A stretch of 64,000 nt of DNA from the NCBI RefSeq assembly GCF_001442625.1, contig NZ_LMZQ01000003.1, forward strand, positions 62,001 to 126,000, written 5' to 3'. A program made the translations under genes and the position numbers. The notes below the pieces were generated by a model that was not told where the DNA came from, did no database searches, and saw only the letters and a program-made list of their open reading frames with translations. Positions 56,218-57,643 of the stretch are shown here, piece after piece; the first letter of the stretch is position 1, and the number at the start of each line of letters is the position of its first letter. The stretch is from Pedobacter ginsenosidimutans. Lineage in GTDB: Bacteria > Bacteroidota > Bacteroidia > Sphingobacteriales > Sphingobacteriaceae.

Positions 56218-56309
56218 TGTTTAATTTAACGGAAAATTATTTAAAGTAGTGTGATTATCTCTCATCCCTCTTGCCCCCTGACAAATTAATTGCTAGAGAA
56301 TAGTCCATT

Positions 56310-56870
56310 CCCCCTTTGAAGGGGCAGGGGGATGACCCTGCAAAAAATCTTTCAATTCAAAGGATCCGGGGATGATCTTGCTCCCATTCTGCAATAAAAT
56401 GCTGCATTGTTCTATCCACATTCTCGATATCGTTCATTACCTCATCATCACTAAACCTCAGGACATGAAAACCCAATGCATTCAGAATAAGTTCACGAGC
56501 TTTATCTTTTTCAAATTGACCTTCCCATTCATGTGAAAGTCCATCAACCTCGATAACCAATTTTAAATCTTTTGAGAAAAAATCTGCAATATAATTTGCG
56601 ATCGGTCGCTGTCTTAAGAAAGAATATCCCAGCATTTTTTTATTCCTCAACAATTCACACCACATTCTTATCTCTGCTTTTGTACTATCATTTCGATGGC
56701 CTCTAGCATAAGTTTTTAATTTAGAATTGTAGCTGTTGTTATCCATTGCGTTTTAAATCTTTTCTTAGAAGTAAAAAGTCGAAAAATGAATATAGCAAAC
56801 AATTTGCTGTTTTATTCATCTTTAAAATTAAATGTGATCTTCTTCATCCCCCTGCCCCCTTCAAAGGGGG
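56310..56870. mobile_element. DUF559 nuclease cassette between 26/27-bp inverted repeats
   Basis: Left arm CCCCCTTTGAAGGGG plus CAGGGGGATGA at 56310-56335; right arm TCATCCCCCTG plus CCCCCTTCAAAGGGGG at 56844-56870. The right arm is the exact complement of the left except for one inserted C. Each arm is itself palindromic (CCCCTT...AAGGGG). The unit is 561 bases and holds only the DUF559 gene. No target-site duplication seen. Confidence 0.7.
56357..56746 (-). CDS. DUF559 endonuclease-domain protein (Vsr-like)
   Basis: 129 residues. The opening SKLKTYARGHRNDSTKAEIR then MWCELLRNKKMLGYSFLRQR match DUF559 proteins, and the PD-(D/E)XK core is IADFFSKDLKLVIEVDGLSH (Asp near 70, E-x-D near 80), ending LNALGFHVLRFSDDEVM. 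The fold is akin to very-short-patch-repair nucleases. Its real substrate is not known. It is boxed by inverted repeats on both sides, so it looks like a cassette. Confidence 0.94.
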   Translation of the reverse strand: MDNNSYNSKLKTYARGHRNDSTKAEIRMWCELLRNKKMLGYSFLRQRPIANYIADFFSKDLKLVIEVDGLSHEWEGQFEKDKARELILNALGFHVLRFSDDEVMNDIENVDRTMQHFIAEWEQDHPRIL

Positions 56871-56962
56871 ACAGATTCCCCGATAATTCAAATGCATAGG
56901 ATTTATTTCCTAATAGCTAACTCTTCTTATGAATGACAGGGGATAGTATAATAAAGTGTTGT

Positions 56963-57643
56963 CTACGAAAGAATAAAATCCACAATTGCCTTGCAATGAA
57001 TTTTAGTGGTGTCAAATACCGGAACATCAAAGTCAGTCTGACTAATCAACATTGGGATTTCTGTACAACCCAGAATTATCCCTTCTGCACCATCGGCGAT
57101 TAGATCATTAATCATTTTGATATATTGCGCCCTGGTTTCTGCCAAAATTAATCCTCTACCCAGTTCTTCTTTAAGTGTAAACTGGATGTAATCGCGAGTT
57201 TCTTTTTTTGATGGCACCAATACGTTTAATCCATGGTCTTCGAGCTTTTTGATATAAAATTCCTTTTCCATGGTAAACACAGTTCCCAATAAAGCTACCT
57301 TTTTAATTCCTGCAGCATTTATGGCTTTAGCGGTTTCTGTACCGATATGGATAATCGGTAATGCAATCTTTTCCTGAAGCTGATCGGCAAAAAGATGGGC
57401 GGTATTGGCACATAATACAATGGCTTCTACACCACTGCGCTTTAAACTCTCGCAAGCAGCGAGTAAAAGGTCAAACGATCCTTCCCAGGTTTTATCCTGT
57501 ACATCACCAAAATTAAGGGAGTAAATTAAACACTCAGCAAAATTTAATCCGCCCAACCGCTCATTTACGCCCTCATTTATAAAACGATAATAATCTATTG
57601 TCGATATCCAGCTAATGCCACCTACTAAACCAATTTTTCTCAT
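56963..57643 (-). CDS. Aspartate/glutamate racemase family protein
   Basis: 226 residues. The family core is visible in two Cys motifs, EAIVLCANTAHLFADQLQEK (catalytic Cys, near 81) and EGIILGCTEIPMLISQTDFD (catalytic Cys, near 190), with GLVGGISWISTIDYYRFINE at the start. PLP-independent racemisation of aspartate is likely, though relatives take other substrates. Cytoplasmic; upstream of cysS in transcription? No: cysS lies before it in the same direction, 44 bases apart. Confidence 0.9.
   Translation of the reverse strand: MRKIGLVGGISWISTIDYYRFINEGVNERLGGLNFAECLIYSLNFGDVQDKTWEGSFDLLLAACESLKRSGVEAIVLCANTAHLFADQLQEKIALPIIHIGTETAKAINAAGIKKVALLGTVFTMEKEFYIKKLEDHGLNVLVPSKKETRDYIQFTLKEELGRGLILAETRAQYIKMINDLIADGAEGIILGCTEIPMLISQTDFDVPVFDTTKIHCKAIVDFILS

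Follow-up and report, generated by a model that had tools for sequence, protein, structure and literature searches.

The window analysed here is a stretch of 64,000 nucleotides from Pedobacter ginsenosidimutans (contig NZ_LMZQ01000003.1, positions 62,001 to 126,000 of the forward strand), in which a small gene for a DUF559 nuclease is boxed by two inverted copies of a short repeat. This observation is confirmed, and with it two statements of an earlier note made from the letters of this DNA: the arms are complementary save for one extra C (they are reverse complements, the right arm carrying one more C/G), and the sole gene between them is a small DUF559 open reading frame of 129 amino acids (PF04480). 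An ungapped repeat finder places the arm pair at 85-87%. Each arm has the design of the 'potential intrastrand triplex' (PIT) repeats, also called BoxC or TM-ECO, which passages of PMC4666352 describe as Y-R-R (pyrimidine-purine-purine) and whose origin is there called unclear; the order is Y-arm, loop, R-arm, spacer and, as mirror image of the R-arm, a third purine strand. The earlier note had closed the unit at 56310-56870, which is too narrow, as a decayed PIT lies beyond that limit and makes, together with the left arm, a 74-bp inverted pair, the size of the gene-less mini-elements of relatives. In window coordinates the parts are:

56309-56335, + strand: left inner PIT arm, 27 nt; Y-arm CCCCCTT, R-arm one G short, spacer CA, third strand GGGGGATGA toward the gene
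56844-56871, - strand: right inner PIT arm, inverted copy, 28 nt; TCCCCCTTTGAAGGGGGCAGGGGGATGA on the - strand
56357-56746, - strand: DUF559 (PF04480) nuclease gene, 129 amino acids, PD-(D/E)XK / Vsr-EDxHD type
56262-56282 (approximate), - strand: decayed reverse PIT, placed by eye and by comparison with intact copies in loci L122 and L124
56935-56947, + strand: possible decayed forward PIT tail on the right side, tentative, placed by eye only from its position against locus L010

The nuclease and its arms in the window's genome

The window protein matches the DUF559 profile PF04480 with an E value of 4e-29 (101 bits, against a Pfam cut-off of 20.6), and among PDB profiles it matches best 3hrl, Endonuclease-Like Protein (3.6e-20), followed by 3r3p, Mobile intron protein (9e-7), which we take to be I-Bth0305I. 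Vsr (PF03852) is not among its Pfam matches, the same library having caught 3/3 control proteins tried. Residues D55, E66, D68, H72 and D81 stand at 100% (rounded) in an alignment of 93 proteins, one metagenomic relative outside this set (L014) having A at the position of E66, and the ratio of nonsynonymous to synonymous substitution rates (dN/dS) against three Pedobacter orthologues is 0.11-0.20. In these comparisons the predicted nuclease is shown to keep its active-site residues.

The 6.5-Mb genome has just two exact copies of the 15-mer CCCCCTTTGAAGGGG, one in each arm (reversed-pattern control, 0). A looser pattern, CCCCTTN{2,10}AAGGGG, matches the same two arms only; its reversed control, too, matches at 2 places, so that only the exact 15-mer, together with the pairing of the arms, speaks for rarity. 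Their arm-to-arm score is 24; in 13,800 dinucleotide shuffles, drawn from all loci tested, the highest score was 16. A plain repetitive extragenic palindrome (REP) was considered and rejected for these arms, the exact palindrome having two copies here and the arms carrying a third strand.

Linkage of DUF559 genes with inverted PIT arms

Of 151 genomes of the family, 89 have a PF04480 match, counting the weak matches of Vsr type. Single-domain DUF559 loci were taken down the score list without inspection of their flanks, giving 55 loci from 38 genomes (about 20 others were left out, some at contig ends), and in 38 of these 55 the inverted arms are better than all 200 dinucleotide shuffles, with p<=0.05 in 42. 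The same shuffle test finds matching arms at 0/14 Vsr-type control loci, a set of weak partial PF04480 matches of which the three checked are PF03852 (Vsr). A strict PIT detector, applied within 450 bp of the gene, marks 35 of the 55 DUF559 loci (18 of them on both sides), none of the 14 Vsr-type loci and none of 20 loci of Y1 (single-tyrosine, RAYT-type) transposases sampled from genomes of the same family. Ten named relatives (7 Pedobacter, 2 Balneolaceae, 1 Rufibacter) all have significant arms, eight at 0/200 and two at 1/200.

The arm sequence differs from locus to locus and tracks that of the nuclease. Across 38 loci, protein identity correlates with arm similarity (r=0.544, and r=0.265 for pairs below 60% identity; 0/2000 permutations each), and at 33 loci sharing a genome with another one a locus' own arms score 19.0 on average and swapped arms 11.0, own arms winning against the best swap in 23, tying in 3 and losing in 7; these statistics of cognacy ignore phylogeny. 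The second DUF559 gene of the window's genome (contig position G000:C9:70975-71283, locus L003) has palindromes of another family on its flanks, CCCTCTCCT..AGGAGAGGG, with a two-sided score of 14, and a different flanking palindrome is what the cognate model predicts. We regard the linkage between DUF559 genes and cognate repeats of predicted triplex design as firm at the level of sequence comparison. The earlier note had spoken of a REP-type pair with its own nuclease and had let this depend on enrichment of the repeat beside DUF559 genes: the enrichment is found, and the part about cognate arms stands, whereas the likeness to REPs does not extend to copy number, with only two intact copies in this genome. 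'REP-like' misdescribes the copy number there because the repeat is not dispersed, and it fits in relatives.

The association is not confined to the family. Relatives of the window protein were found in 3 of 50,697 phage records and 30 of 72,556 plasmid records, a search that more distant DUF559 proteins may escape; in a scan of viral contigs, 0/21 candidates were confirmed. Eight of 14 loci tested (13 plasmid, 1 phage) pass at 0/200 by shuffles of 2-base blocks, and by eye seven of the eight have PIT arms (Deinococcus, Cyanobacteria, Alphaproteobacteria), the arm of the phage scaffold (L117) not being a PIT. The DUF559 genes of such records sit within gene clusters (sufB|sufC, paaD|paaZ, hpaB-hpaE twice, gatB/yqeY|dnaG), and an empty allele sought for two of the plasmid loci was not found. 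On a Synechocystis plasmid (L111), DUF559 and PITs lie just ahead of the bacteriophage exclusion (BREX) gene pglX, in sequence that by eye resembles a split-off part of pglX.

In Escherichia coli K-12, ycjD is a DUF559 gene (167 bits), located through the NCBIfam name PRK09767, and YcjD was earlier assigned to the PD-(D/E)XK superfamily, as a passage of PMC1189080 states. On its downstream side ycjD has the repeat listed as TM-ECO no. 9, at a distance of about 170 bp; a second PIT, decayed and recognised by eye, overlaps the 3' end of the gene. The ycjD region is covered to at least 80% in 3,333 of 5,426 E. coli genomes, in none of which a Photobacterium DUF559 DNA query found a match; in one strain without the ycjD region other genes follow fabI, an arrangement that part of PMC12817139 also describes.

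The third strand

The arm reads CCCCC-TTTGAA-GGGGG-CA-GGGGGATGA, where the last part is the R-arm GAAGGGGG in mirror order, apart from a T that stands in place of one A, so that the Y-arm is able to pair with either purine stretch. Folded as single strands, the arms use different purine stretches: the Y-arm pairs with the third strand in the left arm (-5.9 kcal/mol) and with the R-arm in the right one (-5.8 kcal/mol); these folds do not go beyond those of shuffled sequence, 29/200 (left) and 59/200 (right) shuffles folding as well. Measured against the PIT definition, i.e., a mirrored third purine strand forming G.G:C, A.A:T or T.A:T triads, the window arm (L004) has a mirror match of 1.0. For the E. 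coli motif, triplex formation in vitro is reported in PMC4666352. The earlier view of each arm as a palindrome able to fold as a hairpin holds as far as the palindrome goes; with their third strand the arms are triplex (PIT) motifs rather than plain hairpins.

The mirror relation was measured on 53 PITs from 42 loci, leaving out self-mirrored arms and choosing the purine-rich side as tail. With T allowed opposite A, the tails match the mirror of their own R-arm at 0.83, shuffled tails reaching 0.71 and none of 1000 being as good, and mirror outdoes direct repeat in 25 PITs, falls behind in 3 and ties in 25. An earlier version of the measurement, without the choice of side, gave 0.628 vs 0.56 for the mirror (0/500) and 0.579 vs 0.557 for the direct repeat (16/500). 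When the third strand is placed by its G positions only (22 loci), the bases opposite A are A 87, T 83, C 12 and G 3, compared with A 45, T 39, G 14 and C 2 under direct placement, counts that come from nested stems and are not independent. In one PIT family, moreover, R-arm and third strand covary: A/A 22 and G/G 88 vs A/not-A 1 and G/A 2 (p 4e-20, which is only indicative because the sequences are related by descent), in 120 distinct genome-sequence pairs among the matches listed, seven pairs of other types standing outside the 2x2 test; a first count had used 89 of the sequences listed. On this comparative evidence, the pattern of the predicted third strand is that of the purine-motif triplex code. 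In some PITs (L029, L045, L108, L114) a small hairpin, such as TGGCGAAGCCA, seems by eye to stand between R-arm and third strand.

Filled and empty sites

The element of the window lies upstream of a gene for an M28 peptidase. Among 30 Pedobacter loci of this peptidase (of 32 strong matches), DUF559 is present in 8 and absent from the 1.5-kb flank examined in 22, with cysS in reach in 21 of the latter. Some of the DUF559-less loci have kept PITs (e.g., L123, L125, L126 and L129), others have a short gap and no PIT (17 bp in L139, 15 bp in L140), and L124 has a second, truncated DUF559. The racemase-like gene adjoining the element (window 56963-57643) is itself present or absent at this locus depending on the Pedobacter species.

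Large proteins matched by DUF559 turned out to be in-frame insertions. Pfam places the domain inside leucyl-tRNA synthetase (beside the editing domain), methylmalonyl-CoA mutase and an Lhr-type helicase, and in a fourth case DUF559 is fused ahead of a histidine-biosynthesis (HisF-type) domain; in the arm test, 17 of 22 in-frame loci pass at 0/200 and 19 at p<=0.05. One site in leuS exists in three states, all in frame: empty (e.g., L162 and L166), with a PIT pair only (L157), and with PIT-DUF559-PIT (L038, L033, L153 and L151). It is readable in 27 of 30 loci, two of which have DUF559 between PITs, five PIT-coded peptides only and 20 neither. A homing element would be encoded in a self-splicing intron or intein, or sit at a fixed cognate site; several insertions share this one leuS site, and others are dispersed.

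Gene-less copies complete the picture. The pattern CTCTCCN{2,6}GGAGAGN{2,8}GGTGAGG occurs in 57 of the 151 genomes, with up to 56 copies (reversed control, 0), and not in the window's genome. The PIT family with this pattern is present in 49/68 genomes with DUF559 (best E <= 1e-20) vs 8/83 without, an odds ratio of 24 from Fisher tests that ignore phylogeny; in a within-genus permutation, 4/5000 are as extreme. Equal abundance of the repeat in genomes without the nuclease would have spoken against the earlier note, and it is not what these counts show. With the ends fixed as GCCTCA[CT]C and TGAGGC, 16 distinct mini-elements of 74-99 bp were found in differing flanks and with no general target duplication. 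A clear flank repeat was seen at one of the 16, and the target-site duplication that marks insertion sequences (IS) of the DDE type is not the rule here; at that one (L190, about 600-677) a 17-bp direct duplication, CTACCAAAAGTATAAAA, stands in both flanks, the other 15 lacking such a duplication. In a BLAST comparison of a 12-kb stretch with 17 relatives, the unit of about 85 bp recurs at more than 20 places among the matches listed, its ends being set by the alignment. Of 18 genomes compared at one mini-element site, 3 have it filled (in one case by a decayed copy), 12 have it empty and 3 are unreadable there, and so the empty sites sought on the suggestion of the earlier note exist both here and at the peptidase locus. 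In other species (L209 and L226, at site 1 of L201) the variable intergenic gap of this site holds another repeat, of the type CATTGCGAGG..ACGAAGCAATC. Mobility would be read, then, from the contrast of filled and empty sites between species, and inverted flanking palindromes along with dispersed gene-less copies, as in REP systems and their transposases, are found together in relatives, the dispersal not being seen in the window's genome.

A probable mobile element and its alternatives

Taken together, these results probably describe a class of mobile element that runs parallel to REP sequences and their REP-associated tyrosine transposases (RAYTs), in which a DUF559 nuclease gene is bounded by inverted, potentially triplex-forming PITs. 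That the nuclease acts on PITs and moves the repeats is the best reading we can offer, and an unproven one. A single strand carrying a PIT could fold as a hairpin or as a purine-motif triplex; the nuclease would recognise its own PIT, probably when single-stranded (e.g., on the lagging strand), and nick near the end of the third strand, and this nick could start copying, or excision and re-insertion, of the PIT-bounded DNA. Movement might include the gene itself (in cis) or concern mini-elements and single PITs (in trans), leaving no target-site duplication, and in-frame copies would be those surviving selection. Somewhat less confidently, though still with the balance in favour, we suggest that the class has H-DNA ends read by a Vsr-fold nuclease and enters essential genes such as leuS in frame without splicing. 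It would account for the PIT/BoxC/TM repeats of E. coli, Enterobacter, Cyanobacteria, Deinococcus and Bacteroidota, and YcjD would stand for it in E. coli.

Several observations pull the other way. Significant inverted arms are absent from 13 of the 55 single-domain loci, and in the window's genome the exact palindrome is confined to its own pair. The counted PIT family is missing from 19/68 DUF559 genomes and present in 8/83 without a strong DUF559 match, a class in which distant members may hide, as the PF04480 search missed E. coli in the control set (K-12, if that was the control, has ycjD). At ycjD the PITs lie on the downstream side only and the two-sided test failed (101/200). Besides mirroring the R-arm, the third strand is closer to a direct repeat of it than shuffled tails are (0.756 vs 0.70, 0/1000), with a smaller excess than for the mirror, and by eye the polarity of the tail varies, pointing inward on the inner pair here and outward in the leuS copies and mini-elements. 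Intergenic DNA at the window locus is variable, so that exact integration points are not resolvable there; the AlphaFold2 model of the protein, built from 8 sequences, is poor (mean predicted local distance difference test, pLDDT, 61.5); and Y1 genes co-occur with the PIT family of the CTCTCC pattern (odds ratio 10.0).

DUF559 could instead be a structure-specific clean-up or repair nuclease for PITs, kept near them without moving them. The conserved active-site residues and the low dN/dS would suit such a role, PMC4666352 ties PIT repeats to instability, and for VsrA of Caulobacter, a DUF559 protein, PMC12907096 proposes a repair-type endonuclease. A repair enzyme, however, works in trans and needs no inverted, locus-specific PITs as its bounds, and neither the patchy presence of the gene at the window's site nor the copies in frame inside leuS, methylmalonyl-CoA mutase and a helicase are what it would lead one to expect; we hold this explanation to be unlikely.

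It is also conceivable, at a still lower probability, that a Y1 (RAYT/IS200-type) transposase moves the PITs, with DUF559 as a passenger. Y1 genes are present in 77/151 genomes and co-occur with DUF559 (odds ratio 16.3) as they do with PITs, and among genomes without DUF559 PITs are found in 5/20 with Y1 vs 3/63 without (p 0.018). Yet DUF559 predicts PITs in both strata, with Y1 (p 3e-4) and without it (p 2e-5), Y1 has no further predictive value within the DUF559 genomes (p 0.49), and the 20 Y1 loci sampled had no PIT nearby. Eight of these 20 (L246, L247, L250, L251, L253, L258, L260 and L261) have inverted repeats of their own and of other sequence, which serves as a positive control for the method, and because of these different repeats two repeat-nuclease systems coexist. 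The idea of the earlier note, that the arrangement parallels RAYTs and REPs with another enzyme family, is supported in that the Y1 genes sampled use other palindromes; no Y1 (HuH) gene lies between the palindromes here, the gene being DUF559.

Just as improbable in our estimate is a Vsr-like mismatch or restriction-type enzyme beside which PITs merely insert: the protein belongs to the Vsr superfamily and such a function has been proposed for Caulobacter VsrA (PMC12907096), but the Vsr-type genes of the same genome family are without PITs, and PIT and nuclease sequences covary. Least credible of all, the arms would be ordinary terminators, or stem-loops with a regulatory role, beside a small gene. 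The authors of PMC2869309 presume that the Enterobacter sp. 638 repeats CCCTCTCCC..GGGAGAGGG act in termination, but the arms match each other far beyond what a terminator needs, differ by locus, lie inside open reading frames and occur as gene-less pairs, and E. coli PITs showed neither promoter nor terminator activity in earlier work cited in a passage of PMC4666352.

If the preferred reading of a PIT-bounded mobile element is correct, the DUF559 nuclease is a candidate for what spreads PIT/BoxC repeats, and its pairing with them, recurring in distant bacteria, points to a kind of mobile DNA previously unrecognised. The main text of PMC4666352 has no word starting with 'DUF' or 'nuclease', and none of the papers listed by the literature searches, which mostly did not cover subscription papers and preprints, ties DUF559 to palindromes or PITs; DUF559 itself is named in 14 papers of the literature searched, in none of them in title or abstract. 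With a cognate nuclease the PIT/BoxC question becomes testable, also in E. coli K-12, where ycjD stands beside TM-ECO no. 9. The covariation of the third strand is comparative evidence for a selected triplex geometry, and a nuclease that reads ends folded as triplex or hairpin would define mobile elements in a new way and might serve as a tool. The in-frame insertions in leuS, in turn, suggest a parasite tolerated within an essential enzyme.

Comparison with known systems

The element described here resembles the REP/REPIN-RAYT system in its short, inverted palindromes flanking a dedicated nuclease gene and in dispersed, gene-less inverted pairs such as PMC3733652 describes. It differs from it in the enzyme, which is DUF559 (PD-(D/E)XK / Vsr-EDxHD) and not Y1/HuH, and in the repeat, which is a Y-R-R triplex motif. 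With Vsr mismatch endonucleases it shares the superfamily and the type of active site, whereas the Vsr-type genes lack PIT arms (0/14). EDxHD homing endonucleases (PDB 3r3p) and inteins bearing DUF559 likewise have a related nuclease domain that drives gene mobility, though the element here is bounded by PITs. Rickettsia palindromic elements and in-gene REPs (REPs in coding regions being noted in PMC3733652) are also palindromic repeats within coding genes; unlike them, the in-frame insert here can carry a nuclease gene and potentially triplex-forming ends. The PIT/BoxC/TM-ECO repeats themselves (PMC4666352, and Hoyne and Maher as cited in it) have the same Y-arm, R-arm and mirrored third purine strand, come in inverted pairs and include TM-ECO no. 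9 near ycjD; E. coli K-12 copies are described as always intergenic, whereas those reported here also lie in frame within genes.
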